Shown here one piece after another: positions 10,526 through 19,409 of a DNA stretch of 23,248 nucleotides; the stretch's first letter is position 1, and each line of letters begins with the position of its first letter. A program made the translations under genes and the position numbers. Below the pieces are notes generated by a model. The model saw nothing but the letters and a program-made list of their open reading frames with translations. It searched no databases and was not told where the DNA came from. The stretch comes from a virus, in the IMG/VR virus record IMGVR_UViG_3300048785_000151, positions 1 through 23,248 of that record; one strand, given 5' to 3'.

Positions 10526-11079
10526 CCACCTACTCCACCCGCACCAACGCGGTCCGCGCCGCGCGCAAGGCCCTCGGCGCCGACAGGCTGTCCGACGTCC
10601 ACTTCCGCGTCACCGAGGCCAAGGGCGCGGAGCTGGCTCGCCAGGAGGGCCGCGAGGACGAGGCGGATGCGACCATTGCCAACGAGCGGCTCGAAGAGAT
10701 CGCCGCCGACCCGACGCTGCTGGTGAGCGGCGCCGAACTGGAAGCGGCACTCGCCGACCCGCTGGTGGTGGACGGCGTCCGCTTCCCCAACCTCACCCGC
10801 GCGAACGAGGCGCGGCGCCTGATTGACGAGGCGCCTTCGCGCAGCGCCGCCCCGGTCGAGGCGACCGCAGCGGCCAAGACGCCGAAGCACGCCAAGCGCG
10901 ACGAGGTCCTGGCGCTGCTCAAGCGGCCGGAGGGCGCGTCGGTGGCGGATATCCAGGCGATCACCGGCTGGCTCCCGCACACCGCGCGAGCCTTCCTCTC
11001 GGTCACCCCCAAGAAGCTCGGCCTGCAGATGACCACGGAGAAGGTCGACAAGCGGACGGTCTATCGCGTCGCCGCTTAG
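10522..11079 (+). CDS. DUF3489 domain protein
   Basis: 185 residues. The N-terminal 110 residues are helical and charged (TNAVRAARKALGADRLSDVH and on). After an Ala/Pro linker the C-terminus reads KRDEVLALLKRPEGASVADI, ITGWLPHTARAFLS, then LGLQMTTEKVDKRTVYRVAA. That C-terminal block is the DUF3489 winged-helix-like domain as I remember it (x-L-L-x-R-x-x-G-A-S/T-I-x-x-I-x-x-x-T-G-W-x-x-H-T-x-R/A-A). It is common in alphaproteobacterial phages and likely binds DNA. GGAGACGAC lies three bases before the ATG. It is the last gene of the plus-strand operon; its stop overlaps that of the convergent methyltransferase. Confidence 0.85.
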   Translation: MTTYSTRTNAVRAARKALGADRLSDVHFRVTEAKGAELARQEGREDEADATIANERLEEIAADPTLLVSGAELEAALADPLVVDGVRFPNLTRANEARRLIDEAPSRSAAPVEATAAAKTPKHAKRDEVLALLKRPEGASVADIQAITGWLPHTARAFLSVTPKKLGLQMTTEKVDKRTVYRVAA

Positions 11080-12410
11080 ACCGCCGCTGCCCGCCCCTTG
11101 GAGCCCGCCACGCCCGCCGTGGCGGGCTTCCTCGTCCTCTTGCGGGCCTTCGCCCTGGCCTGAGCGACCGCCGCGTACAAGCCGCCGCCTTGGAGCACCG
11201 CGAGCCCACCAGCGAACGCCTGCCAGCGCAGCACCGCAACGTCGCAGTATCCGGGATCCAACTCGACCGCGTAGAGCCGCCGCGCCGTCATCTCCGCCGC
11301 TATCAGCGTCGTGCCGCTGCCGAGGAAGGGGTCGTAGATCGCCTCCCCCGCGGCGGAGTTGTTGACGATCGGCCGATGCATGCACTCGACCGGCTTCTGG
11401 GTCGAGTGCCCGGTCTCGTTCTTCACCTGCCGGTCAATCTTCCAGACCGTCGACTGGTCGCGCGCACCCTGCCAGTGCCCGGTGCGCCCCTGGCGAACAG
11501 CGTACCAACAACTCTCGTGCTGGGAATGATAGTGGCCTCGGCTGATGACCAAGACGCTCTTGACCCACACGATCAGCGTCCGCGGCCCGATCCCGGTCGC
11601 CTGCAGGCTCTCAGCCACCAAGCCGCAAAAGCGATCGCCATGCCAGACGTAGGCGACGTCGCCGGGGAAAAGCGCCCAGGCCTCGCGCCAGTCGGCGCGC
11701 TCGTCGTTCAGCACCTTGCCGATCGCCGCGCCTCGGCCCCCGTTGAGCCGGGAGCCGTCGCCTCGCCTCGCTTGCTGGCGCCGGGTCGCGTCGTAGTTCA
11801 CGCCATAGGGTGGGTCGGTGACCATCAGGTTCGGCTCCGCGCCGTCCAGTAGGCGGGCGACCGTCGCGGCGTCGGTCGAATCGCCGCAGATCAGTCGGTG
11901 GTCGCCAAGGATCCAAACGTCGCCGGGCCTCGTGACTGGCCTGGCGGGCAGCGGCGGCGCCTCCGCGTCGGCCTCGGCCTCCAGATCGCGGAGGAGGCCG
12001 CGCAGGTCAACCAGCGGCAGCGCCGTCAGGGAAAGGTCGAAGCCGGCCGCGCCCAGGCCGACGATCTCAGCGCGCAGCAAGCCGAGGTCCCAGGTCGCCA
12101 GCAGCGCGGTTTGGTTGTCGCTGATCCGCAGCGCGCGCACTTGCTCCGGCGTCAGGCCGACCACGCGGACGCAGGGCACCTCGGTCATGCCGATCCGCTG
12201 CGCGACGGTGTAGCGGCCGTGGCCGGCGATGATCTCGTTCGCCTCGTCAATGATCAGCGGCTGGGTGAACCCGCTGTCGCGGATCACGCGCTCGAGGGTG
12301 ACCAGCTGCTCCTCGGAGTGGACCCTGGCGTTGGCGGCGAACGGTCGGAGGGCGCCGGTCGCGACCATCTCGACCGCTCGGCCGTGGACGGTGATTTCAC
12401 GCTCGCTCAT
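11076..12410 (-). CDS. ParB-like nuclease domain / DNA methyltransferase fusion
   Basis: 444 residues. Residues about 15-100 form a ParB N-terminal-like domain: PLIIDEANEIIAGHGRYTVA, then VRVVGLTPEQVRALRISDNQ. The catalytic half starts at VTRPGDVWILGDHRLICGD; the substrate-amine motif IV is DPPYG at 199-203 and the AdoMet motif I is DPFLGSGTT at about 360-368. That order (IV before I) is the beta class of N6-adenine/N4-cytosine methyltransferases. This ParB-MTase architecture is widespread in phages, usually without a partner nuclease, and is thought to protect phage DNA or regulate. The basic tail (ARAKARKRTRKPATA) overlaps a terminator-like hairpin. The ATG overlaps the stop of the small gene upstream. 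Confidence 0.92.
   Translation of the reverse strand: MSEREITVHGRAVEMVATGALRPFAANARVHSEEQLVTLERVIRDSGFTQPLIIDEANEIIAGHGRYTVAQRIGMTEVPCVRVVGLTPEQVRALRISDNQTALLATWDLGLLRAEIVGLGAAGFDLSLTALPLVDLRGLLRDLEAEADAEAPPLPARPVTRPGDVWILGDHRLICGDSTDAATVARLLDGAEPNLMVTDPPYGVNYDATRRQQARRGDGSRLNGGRGAAIGKVLNDERADWREAWALFPGDVAYVWHGDRFCGLVAESLQATGIGPRTLIVWVKSVLVISRGHYHSQHESCWYAVRQGRTGHWQGARDQSTVWKIDRQVKNETGHSTQKPVECMHRPIVNNSAAGEAIYDPFLGSGTTLIAAEMTARRLYAVELDPGYCDVAVLRWQAFAGGLAVLQGGGLYAAVAQARAKARKRTRKPATAGVAGSKGRAAAV
11101..11129 (+). terminator. Terminator-like hairpin for the plus-strand operon, inside the methyltransferase 3' end
   Basis: A perfect 10-bp stem pairs 11102-11111 (AGCCCGCCAC) with 11119-11128 around a 7-nt loop. 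It is followed on the plus strand by TTCCTCGTCCTCTTG. It lies 23 bases past the DUF3489 stop and within the last codons of the convergent gene. Confidence 0.6.
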
Positions 12411-16902: not shown

Positions 16903-18819
16903 TCACCACCCGCCCTCCTCGAGGAGCCACTCGATCCTGCGGCCTATGTCAGATATGACAGAGACCGCCTGGGAATTGCCCAGGGCGCGGTAGCGCGGCC
17001 CGTCGGGCGTCGCCGCCAGGACGCGGGCCTCGTTCTCGCCGTAGCCGCTCGCCAGGAGGTACTCGATTGTCTGGGCGAGGTCGGTCTCGTCGCGGTGGGC
17101 GTCGGAGTAGGGGATCAGGGTGAAGTCGTCCTCGAAGCCCTGGAGGCGCTCGCATTCTCTTGGGGTTAATCTGCGCACCGTCGTGCCGACGAATAGCACC
17201 GGGTCTTGATCGCCCTTGTCGGCGTCGGCGCTCAGCGGCGGGGACAGATCGCTCGGCGCGCCGTCCTTGTCGCGGGTGTAGTGGCTTGGCTTGAAAGCCA
17301 CGGCGACGAAGGGCTTGTCCGACCCGCCGCCTCCAGTCCGGAGCGCTGGCGCAACCTCGCCCTCCTCGGGCTCGATCACGTTCTCACCGTCCCGGCCGCG
17401 AAGGGAGAAGGCGTGCGCGATCAGGGCGCCGCTCTCGATATCAGTTGTGCGCGGCCCGGCCTGATGGGTGGTGCTGATGATCGGCGCCGAGGTGTCGGGC
17501 GCGTAGGCGATGGCTTGAGAGAAGCCGTCCGTGTCGAGCGGCTGGCAAATCTCGGACGGGCAAGGGTCCTGGCGAGCGTTGAAGGCGACGAGGAGCCCGG
17601 TCTCCGCGTCTTGGCCGGTGGCCGAGCCCGGCGTCTTGTGCCCGCCGCTCTGGAGTGCTCCCGCGACGGGAGCGACGTAGGCGATCGCGGGCGGGTGGCC
17701 CTTGTGCGCCAGCGTCGGCGCCGGGTCGCCGGCTTGCGGGTTGGAGCGGTTCTCGGGGTGGGTGATCTGCGTCGGGTCAAACGGGAGCGGCTCCTCGACC
17801 ACGAAGGTGTCGCTCTCGAAGTCCTGGCGGATGCCAGAACCCGGCTTGGCGAGGAGGCCGGCGGCTACGTCGATAGGTCCGCCGGTGCGGTTTCCTCCGA
17901 AAGCCACTCGCTGAACAGGTCGTCCGTTGGCTCCTTGAGGCCCTCCGCCGCTTCCAGCGCCGCCAGCTCCTCCTCGCTCAGCGCCGCCATCGGCCGCGCC
18001 CGGTCGCTCAGCGCTCGCGCCAGGGCCTCGGGGAGCACCTTCCCGCGGTTGACGGCTCGGCGCAGGATGCCCGCACAGGCTATCGAGGACAGGAAGTAGC
18101 GCGTCGGCAACGCGCAGCGCTCCAGCACCTCCACGAGCGAGCACGAAGACCCTCCGCCTTCGTTGGGGTAGGCCGAAGTACTGGGCGTCCAGCGAGCGCC
18201 ATGCGGCCACGCGGCGGGGTCCAGCAACCACACCCGAGCTTGTCCAGCCCCCGCGCCCTGGCGGAACGAGGGCGGATTGTGCTCCGACCATTCCCGCCAG
18301 GAAGGCGCCGAAGGCGTTGTCTTCGACGCTGAGGACTCCGGGGACGTTTTCCCAGAGGATGGCGACGGGTGGCTTTCCAGCAGCGCGTCGAAAATCGTCA
18401 ATTGCATCGGCCAGCCTCAGGAACTCGAGAGAGAGGTTTCCGCGGTCGTCGGCGAGCGAGCGCCTCAGCCCCGCGAGCGAGAAGGCCTGACAAGGCGTGC
18501 CGCCCACCAGCACGTCGGCCTCGACAATCATGGGCTCGTCGCGAAGGCGCGTGAAGTCGCCCTCGTTGGTGATCAGGGTCCCCCACTCGATCCCGTCGAG
18601 CGCGCGGATCGCGTTCCGCCGGCGGCTCGCTTCCTTCGGATCGGAGCCGTCCTCAGGCTGCGGCATGTATCGCGGCCGGCCGGCGCCGTGCCGCTGGGCA
18701 AGCACGGCCGAGGCAAAGGGGTCGATCTCGGCGTAGGCGAGCGCTTCCCACCCACGCGGCTTCCAAGCCGCCGAGGGCGCGGATATTCCGCTGCATACGC
18801 ACAGGAAGCGAACGGGCAT
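16903..18819 (-). CDS. C5-cytosine DNA methyltransferase with long repetitive variable region
   Basis: 638 residues from the ATG at 18819. Motif I FLCVCSGISAPSAAW (5-19), motif IV VLVGGTPCQAFSLAG with catalytic Cys110, motif VI ENVPGV (157-162), motif VIII QRRRRVFVLA (219-228), motif IX/X region RRLTPRECERLQGFEDDF and YRALGNSQAVSVISDIG near the C-terminus. Between VIII and IX lies an unusually long variable region (about residues 230-560) built from recurring segments such as AIAYVAPVAGAL, VAFNARQDP, AIAYAPDTSAP and VAFKPSHYTRDKDGAP, which would form the target-recognition region. Part of this gene (17865-18407) is also readable as a second gene in another frame. Confidence 0.92.
   Translation of the reverse strand: MPVRFLCVCSGISAPSAAWKPRGWEALAYAEIDPFASAVLAQRHGAGRPRYMPQPEDGSDPKEASRRRNAIRALDGIEWGTLITNEGDFTRLRDEPMIVEADVLVGGTPCQAFSLAGLRRSLADDRGNLSLEFLRLADAIDDFRRAAGKPPVAILWENVPGVLSVEDNAFGAFLAGMVGAQSALVPPGRGGWTSSGVVAGPRRVAAWRSLDAQYFGLPQRRRRVFVLARGGAGALRVADALLPVLDSLCGHPAPSRQPREGAPRGPGASAERPGAADGGAERGGAGGAGSGGGPQGANGRPVQRVAFGGNRTGGPIDVAAGLLAKPGSGIRQDFESDTFVVEEPLPFDPTQITHPENRSNPQAGDPAPTLAHKGHPPAIAYVAPVAGALQSGGHKTPGSATGQDAETGLLVAFNARQDPCPSEICQPLDTDGFSQAIAYAPDTSAPIISTTHQAGPRTTDIESGALIAHAFSLRGRDGENVIEPEEGEVAPALRTGGGGSDKPFVAVAFKPSHYTRDKDGAPSDLSPPLSADADKGDQDPVLFVGTTVRRLTPRECERLQGFEDDFTLIPYSDAHRDETDLAQTIEYLLASGYGENEARVLAATPDGPRYRALGNSQAVSVISDIGRRIEWLLEEGGW
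17865..18407 (-). CDS. Nested alternate-frame gene inside the C5 methyltransferase (180 residues)
   Basis: An ATG at 18407 with a TGAGG ribosome-binding motif opens a frame +1 relative to the methyltransferase and continues 180 codons to a TAG. It reads MQLTIFDALLESHPSPSSGK, TSPESSASKTTPSAPSW, ARVWLLDPAAWPHG, then SCSLVEVLE and PTRYFLSSIACAGILRRAVN. I know the pattern RYFLSxxACAGILRRAxxRGK with an upstream SGxTSPxSSxxxTTPS as a family of hypothetical phage proteins. The same nucleotides encode methyltransferase motifs VI and VIII in the other frame, so the region seems to be dual-coding. No catalytic motif; the SxxTSP N-terminus is disordered and the tail acidic (ALSEEELAALEAAEG). Function unknown. 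Confidence 0.65.
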   Translation of the reverse strand: MQLTIFDALLESHPSPSSGKTSPESSASKTTPSAPSWREWSEHNPPSFRQGAGAGQARVWLLDPAAWPHGARWTPSTSAYPNEGGGSSCSLVEVLERCALPTRYFLSSIACAGILRRAVNRGKVLPEALARALSDRARPMAALSEEELAALEAAEGLKEPTDDLFSEWLSEETAPADLST

Positions 18820-18848
18820 CGGCGGCGTGGCGCTCCGGCGACTGACGA

Positions 18849-19409
18849 TCAGAGCAGGGCGCCGCGTCTTCCGTAAAGGAGCCGATCCCAGCGCTCGCCG
18901 AGCCGGCGGTCCTTGTCGCGGAGGAGTGCGAGCCACACCCCGAAGGAGTCGGCCTCGTCGTCTTGCGCCGGCCCCTCACAAAGGGATAGCCCTATTTTCC
19001 GCGCCGCCGCCACCTGATCTTTTTTGTCGGCGCCGGAAAAGCCGGCGAGGGCGCGCTTCACGTCCTTGGGGTCGTACTCGGTCCAGGGGATTCCGTGCCG
19101 GAAGCAGAGCCACTGGAGGTGGCCGATCACGGCGTCGACCTTCCTCATGAAGCCGTGCGGGTTGATCCGCATCTTTTTGCCGCGCTGATAGACCCGGAGG
19201 AGCGGGCCCTCGTAGCCGAGCTCAGTCACCCGCCGCGGCAGGATGGTGGTGTTGAAGTCCCGGTCGAAGGCGTCAACGAGCTGGCCGAGATCGTCGCCGA
19301 AGTCTTGCCAGCCCCAGTGCCCCACCTCGGGGTGCGCCTCTCCGGTTCCTATCGACCAGCCGGAGAGGTGCGTCGCGAGATCAAGTCCCGCGTAGACGTC
19401 AGTTGACAA
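18849..19409 (-). CDS. RuvC-like Holliday junction resolvase (RNase H fold)
   Basis: 186 residues. The RuvC-type acidic residues are placed as expected: D10 in YAGLDLATHLSGWSIG, E67 in ELGYEGPLLRVYQRG, and D150-D151/D154 in AQDDEADSFGVWLALL. Between them is the WTEYDPKDVKRALAGF and ADKKDQV stretch characteristic of the family. It should cut four-way junctions as a dimer during phage recombination or before packaging. The start is a TTG at 19409, overlapping the upstream stop by 11 nt; no ATG fits. The next gene downstream is the cytosine methyltransferase, 29 bases away. Confidence 0.85.
   Translation of the reverse strand: MSTDVYAGLDLATHLSGWSIGTGEAHPEVGHWGWQDFGDDLGQLVDAFDRDFNTTILPRRVTELGYEGPLLRVYQRGKKMRINPHGFMRKVDAVIGHLQWLCFRHGIPWTEYDPKDVKRALAGFSGADKKDQVAAARKIGLSLCEGPAQDDEADSFGVWLALLRDKDRRLGERWDRLLYGRRGALL

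Follow-up and report, generated by a model that had tools for sequence, protein, structure and literature searches.

The window, by which is meant the whole 23,248-nucleotide stretch of viral DNA that was analysed (positions 1 to 23,248 of IMG/VR record IMGVR_UViG_3300048785_000151), carries on its minus strand a gene for a C-5 cytosine DNA methyltransferase, whose frame matches PF00145 with an E-value of 1.5e-26 (Table 1). An ATG at 18819, giving a protein of 638 aa, is a more likely start for this chain (alpha) than the GTG; it comes after the end of a RuvC-like gene at 18849. This RuvC-like resolvase gene (window 18849-19409, minus strand) ends about 30 bases 5' of the likely methyltransferase ATG, and another DNA methyltransferase, of the N6/N4 type with an N-terminal ParB domain, is encoded at 11076-12410, also on the minus strand. 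Within the cytosine methyltransferase gene, a second open reading frame runs from slightly 5' of motif IV to beyond motif VIII. A preliminary description of the sequence had proposed it as a 180-codon out-of-frame gene with its own ATG and ribosome-binding motif, and with motif VIII lying inside the overlap. The coordinates and frame are borne out, as are the cytosine methyltransferase identity of the outer frame and the ATG placed 3' of a GAGG, and motif IV is overlapped as well as motif VIII.

Table 1. Features of the methyltransferase locus in the window
Feature	Position	Strand	Remark
C-5 cytosine DNA methyltransferase (alpha), 677 codons from GTG	16903..18936	(-)	PF00145
Nested ORF (putative beta), 180 codons from ATG, +1 frame of the methyltransferase	17865..18407	(-)	family without annotation
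GAGG, Shine-Dalgarno of the nested ORF	18415..18418	(-)	7 nt 5' of the ATG
QLTIF, nested codons 2-6	18390..18404	(-)	fits the sliding-clamp-binding consensus QLxLF
Nested core, residues 89-133, CSLVEVLERCALPTRYFLSSIACAGILRRAVNRGKVLPEALARAL	18009..18143	(-)	three predicted helices
Outer-frame motif IV, WENVPGVLS	18328..18354	(-)	overlapped by nested ORF
Outer-frame motif VIII, GLPQRRRRVF	18145..18174	(-)	overlapped by nested ORF
Outer-frame LCGHPAPSRQPREG	18037..18078	(-)	under nested core; poorly conserved in this window
Outer-frame motif IX, RRLTPRECERLQGF	17134..17175	(-)	beyond overlap
Outer-frame motif X, YRALGNSQAVSVI	16954..16992	(-)	beyond overlap

The Shine-Dalgarno sequence of the nested ORF is stronger than the outer coding sequence alone would lead one to expect. 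The anti-SD energy at the nested start of the window is -5.6, as against -2.0 in synonymous shuffles, and at 124 of 148 loci the nested Shine-Dalgarno is the stronger in this comparison (p 4e-18, a value that ignores the kinship of the loci).

Related methyltransferases were retrieved from viral contigs with a query confined to the N-terminal 100 residues, which lie before the overlap; the nested frame thus had no role in the choice of loci, and ascertainment through that frame was avoided. In 152 of these 155 loci no stop interrupts the +1 frame between motif IV and the far side of motif VIII, a run of at least 127 codons; the other frame is free of stops in 37. When a non-redundant set was scored over the whole overlap, the +1 frame proved open at 88 of 91 loci, where a synonymous codon shuffle predicts 16.1, and the other frame at none of the 91, where the shuffle predicts 2.2. 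Stop codons or a lost start in relatives were looked for in particular, and three of the 155 loci (L201, L206 and L238) have an N-terminal stop in the nested ORF; the core is kept in all three, and a later start codon may serve there. A chance open frame in GC-rich DNA is ruled out by the unbiased sample, the synonymous shuffles, the control with the other frame and the existence of AT-rich relatives. The +1 frame of E. coli dcm is packed with stops, and no comparable nested frame was found in it.

Synonymous change was measured in 45 independent pairs from the unbiased methyltransferase set. In the methyltransferase frame, the ratio of observed to expected synonymous change is 0.97-1.03 across most of the sequence upstream of the overlap (one small bin gives 0.85), 0.63-0.75 across the opening stretch of the nested ORF (with a single bin at 0.41), and then 0.41, 0.34 and 0.15 along motif VIII and the nested core, before it returns to 1.04 beyond the usual nested stop. 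In the 5' flank, methyltransferase codon positions 1, 2 and 3 differ at rates of 0.205, 0.155 and 0.512, as against 0.351, 0.184 and 0.144 in the final stretch of the core, where position 1, at which changes are silent in the nested frame, is the fastest. Within the core the nested protein is also the better conserved of the two, with an identity of 0.763 compared to 0.660 for the methyltransferase. The synonymous constraint, the flipped codon-position rates and the higher nested identity together argue that both frames are selected, and hence that purifying selection is not confined to the methyltransferase frame. Judged by these substitution patterns, the nested frame dominates selection in the core, both among the relatives and in the window itself. 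The preliminary description had anticipated this from a V-R-R-D-x-A-P-S-R-E form at this place in other methyltransferases, and such a form does exist (MRRDSAPRREAG, MRRDHPPRRGQG, VRRDTPPSREAR); identity of the window's core to four relatives is 0.54-0.68 in the nested frame and 0.15-0.42 in the outer one. Its proposal of a long-lived overlapping gene also holds, with start and frame kept in distant relatives and selection visible in both frames.

Strong synonymous constraint could by itself stem from RNA elements, and the region might in that case be held by an RNA structure or by codon preference rather than by a second protein. Such a non-coding signal is scarcely credible here, given that the constraint is frame-specific (in openness, in the flipped codon-position rates and in amino-acid conservation limited to the +1 frame) and that the ORF has a start codon and Shine-Dalgarno of its own. 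We hold with very high confidence that the nested ORF is a real gene.

The gene is widespread. Searches by tblastn detected the nested protein in phages infecting Vibrio, Pseudomonas, Escherichia (P1 and P7), Akkermansia, Caulobacter, Mycobacterium, Streptococcus, Faecalibacterium, Ruminococcus and Pseudanabaena. Homologues stand at the equivalent place in phages of Proteobacteria, Firmicutes, Actinobacteria, Verrucomicrobia and Cyanobacteria, P1 dmt included, and the +1 position is common to the loci examined, among them that of the AT-rich Streptococcus Javan261. A methyltransferase frame surrounds the nested ORF every time in subfamilies B (80 loci) and C (13 loci), and in subfamily D a methyltransferase ORF of 250 codons or more is clear at 72 of the 80 loci. 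In a non-exhaustive search no homologue was found outside a methyltransferase, and a 274-genome sample yielded two new matches, both inside methyltransferases. Nearly all the records annotate the methyltransferase alone, and the papers searched contained nothing on this overlap. The segment RYFLSxxACAGILRRAxxRGK, which the preliminary description had ascribed to many phage hypothetical proteins, is indeed present and common in phages, but it almost always lies unannotated within a methyltransferase and usually does not form a separate hypothetical. PHROG 16143 ('DNA methyltransferase', 139 aa) matches nested proteins weakly to well (E 1.8e-12 to 0.014); it is named for the methyltransferase, without recognition as an overlapping partner. 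The nested family is far more widely distributed than its annotation would lead one to think.

Some loci have an unusual architecture. The methyltransferase of Faecalibacterium phage FP_Toutatis (L329; NC_047915, 2114-3537) is split and circularly permuted, with motif I after motif X, and its annotated first half continues in frame into the nested core. Mycobacterium phages Schatzie (L325) and Thibault (L326) have an HNH endonuclease ORF within the methyltransferase; the Schatzie record states that intron boundaries could not be determined, and Thibault gp104 coincides with the nested core.

The 45-residue core is predicted by AF2 to form three helices with a pLDDT of 86-96, and most of the remaining protein, where values are low, looks disordered in the model. 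Searches of Pfam, NCBIfam, PDB sequences and PDB folds found no known domain or fold for the nested protein, and matches in a viral fold search were limited to a methyltransferase record and to Thibault gp104, which has the coordinates of the nested core. A counterpart of the core is found within methyltransferases themselves. Monomeric enzymes (Dcm, plasmid, RB43-like and Bacteroides phage methyltransferases) carry a LKDILEDEVDEKYYLSDKA-type segment in frame, 26-40 residues past motif VIII and before the target-recognition domain, with the consensus LxDILExxVxEKYYLSxKA. An HMM built from nested cores alone, whose best score among 3000 decoys was 4.2 bits, matches the in-frame segments of two monomeric methyltransferases (L467 and L470) 26-38 residues past motif VIII with E-values of 5e-9 and 3e-8, which carry some selection because these loci were located with a query composed to resemble such segments. 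Most methyltransferases chosen regardless of the segment have their best match, a sub-significant one, 30-60 residues past motif VIII. An HMM from a narrower nested set matches the in-frame segment at E about 1e-5, and a first attempt at profile-profile comparison with eight monomeric methyltransferases found nothing. By this profile similarity, the nested core is homologous to the segment that monomers carry in frame past motif VIII, ahead of their target-recognition domain.

The same HMM scores above 0 bits on none of 250 alpha chains of classes A-C. Among the 80 alpha chains of class D it exceeds 8 bits once (8.4), at a frameshifted locus, because an indel has shifted the segment into the frame of that chain. 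Since the segment is present in monomers and lacking in the phage alpha chains, the piece held there in cis lies here in trans, out of frame. On M.HhaI the segment aligns around residues 190-220, which we take to be where the small domain of that structure begins. The homology of the core to the in-cis segment favors the earlier conjecture that the nested protein is perhaps an accessory to the methyltransferase, as does the 'C5 methyltransferase beta subunit' annotation of a homologue in phage MM1 1998. With an in-frame methyltransferase homologue for its core, the nested gene differs from an orphan overprinted de novo; for the N-terminal part of the protein, no in-frame methyltransferase homologue was seen.

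The start of the core (CSLSQVLE) and the RVFVVAS of motif VIII are encoded by one and the same stretch of bases in all classes. The core start thus overlaps the codons of motif VIII, and plain deletion from a monomeric gene cannot explain the overlap. At one locus, L541 (IMGVR_UViG_2907632656_000001), indels in the overlap have brought KYFLSREK into frame with the methyltransferase, whose ORF ends thereafter, apparently a natural frame swap or decay. In Bacteroides phages BK687P3 and F4 (L470 and L471), the methyltransferase ORF carries a DILE..YYVS segment in frame and stops soon past it, and the C-terminal motifs are found downstream in another frame, so these enzymes are split or frameshifted.

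Two other accounts of the core can be weighed against these data. The first is that ribosomes shift into the +1 frame within the methyltransferase, joining its N-terminal domain to the core. The in-frame connection of the motif II-VI part with the core in FP_Toutatis is in keeping with such a fusion, as are the short methyltransferase ORFs of BK687P3 and F4 that end past the in-frame segment; however, the conserved nested ATG and Shine-Dalgarno, and constraint that extends up to the N-terminus, point to independent initiation and make a fusion very improbable. The second account gives the nested protein an unrelated function, such as anti-restriction or toxin-like regulation, with the gene merely persisting in the overlap. 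No Pfam or NCBIfam family or solved structure resembles the protein, as that account would have it, but it is made quite unlikely by the homology of the core to a methyltransferase segment, by the confinement of the gene to methyltransferases in the loci examined and by the MM1 1998 beta-subunit annotation.

The explanation that we favor, and consider probably correct, is that the nested ORF encodes one of the two chains, beta, of a cytosine-5 methyltransferase made of two polypeptides, with a core that fills the slot which monomers fill in cis. The nested gene carries a piece that ordinary enzymes have built in, and so is probably the missing second subunit. Dual coding, independent initiation signals, wide conservation, the homology of the core and the absence of the segment from alpha are established here from sequence comparison, and the steps of the mechanism would be as follows. 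The nested protein would be translated from its own ATG and Shine-Dalgarno within the methyltransferase message, yielding the small (beta) polypeptide of the two-polypeptide enzyme. Its C-terminal helical core of 45 residues corresponds to the segment that monomers hold in frame and that the large (alpha) chain of this phage type has presumably lost from its own frame. The probable docking site of the core is the base of the alpha small domain, and once docked the core would complete or stabilise the enzyme, perhaps being needed for activity. The N-terminal QLxLF-like peptide and the disordered linker may in addition tether the enzyme to the replication clamp.

The nested protein of the window begins MQLTIFD, and a QLxLF-like peptide recurs near the start of its relatives in shifting register (MQLSIF, MSQLTFF, MTNTQLTFF, MKSTQLDMF, ILEQLTFL, and QMTLF in MM1). 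The pentapeptide QL(S/D)LF is a bacterial sliding-clamp ligand (PMC9690074, PMC4549789). QLxLF occurs in the N-terminal region of 42 of 89 unbiased nested ORFs, against 2.0 expected from a synonymous shuffle, in 30 of 32 of class B (0.43 expected) and in 7 of 19 of class D (1.4 expected), all counts that shared ancestry inflates; four permuted motifs, used as a control in the unbiased set, occur 1-3 times with 1.1-2.4 expected. That the register shifts speaks for selection acting on the peptide itself, which looks like a candidate sliding-clamp ligand. It is missing from the enterobacterial/P1 group and from most gut Firmicutes, and therefore is not essential to the family.

This motif raises the alternative that the nested protein works apart from the enzyme as an accessory linked to replication, bound to the clamp through QLxLF and recruiting or regulating at the fork from outside the methyltransferase structure. 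The excess of QLxLF over a near-expected count of permuted motifs, its sliding register and the QMTLF of MM1 beta all fit such an accessory. It is nonetheless unlikely, because the P1-like group and most gut Firmicutes lack the motif when the methyltransferase-like core is always kept, and because a methyltransferase frame surrounds the nested ORF in all class A-C loci examined and in 72 of 80 of class D. A bolder form of the two-polypeptide explanation, possible but doubtful, is that phages of many phyla share an out-of-frame bipartite adaptor, in which the core completes the enzyme in trans and QLxLF binds the clamp so that methylation tracks the fork. Eukaryotic Dnmt1 binds PCNA (PMC9690074), and such an adaptor, if real, would be a dual-coded phage counterpart of Dnmt1-PCNA. 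The motif suggests that DNA methylation by phages may be linked to the replication clamp of the host.

If the two-polypeptide explanation is correct, a very common phage enzyme has a second chain that nearly all annotated records seen, that of P1 dmt included, leave out. Should beta be needed for activity, failures to express phage orphan methyltransferases, or to assign their specificity, from the large chain alone would be simply explained, and gene callers would do well to include the nested frame in their output. Among bacterial viruses the overlap also stands as a deep natural example of dual coding out of frame, and its sequences are numerous enough for the co-evolution of two frames to be studied.

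Several known systems bear comparison. In work by Lee et al. in 1995, the small-chain gene of M.EcoHK31I was reportedly found out of frame within the large one, with both chains needed in vitro. M.EcoHK31I and M.AquI are biochemically known examples of two-polypeptide m5C methyltransferases, and the small chain of the former is said to hold motif IX (PMC3404938). In the window motif IX lies on alpha, together with motif X, and beta carries the segment past motif VIII, so that the division of motifs differs from that in M.EcoHK31I. M.AquI shares out its target-recognition region over two chains and has motifs IX and X on the small one, whereas both are on alpha here; the out-of-frame nesting present in the window is not described for M.AquI in that source (PMC3404938). 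Monomeric m5C methyltransferases (E. coli Dcm, M.HhaI, and those of RB43 and Bacteroides phage SJC10) have motifs I-X in common with the window enzyme, but hold the DILE..KYYLS segment in cis past motif VIII, which the window alpha lacks, as do the class A-C alpha chains, all of which score below 0 bits. In E. coli dcm-vsr a cytosine methyltransferase gene is likewise overlapped by the gene of its partner, but the overlap there is 20 bp and terminal, and Vsr is a mismatch endonuclease in which no homology to the nested protein was seen. Out-of-frame HNH elements like that of ShiLan occur in mycobacteriophage methylases (PMC11855218), but they are homing insertions, nuclease-coding and sporadic, unlike the conserved overlap described here.

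The closest parallel is Streptococcus phage MM1 1998, where DQ113772 orf14 (AAZ82426) is annotated as 'C5 methyltransferase beta subunit' and its partner as alpha. Like the nested ORF of the window, MM1 beta is a +1 ORF (of 141 codons) within a C5 methyltransferase. The protein, MTSQQYQMTLFEES...CSLSDILEEEVDERYFLS, has QMTLF near its N-terminus and the homologous core CSLSDILEEEVDERYFLS, and it is related to the window protein through a shared core HMM and through Caulobacter phage DMCA, one place of which is matched by both (5e-10 for the window protein and 2e-6 for MM1 beta). The MM1 methyltransferase belongs to another subfamily than that of the window, direct identity is low, and its subunit name is an annotation. 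Two-polypeptide m5C methyltransferases and the MM1 1998 beta-subunit annotation were thus already known; what is new here is the breadth of the family, the proof of dual coding, the displaced segment and the N-terminal QLxLF motif.
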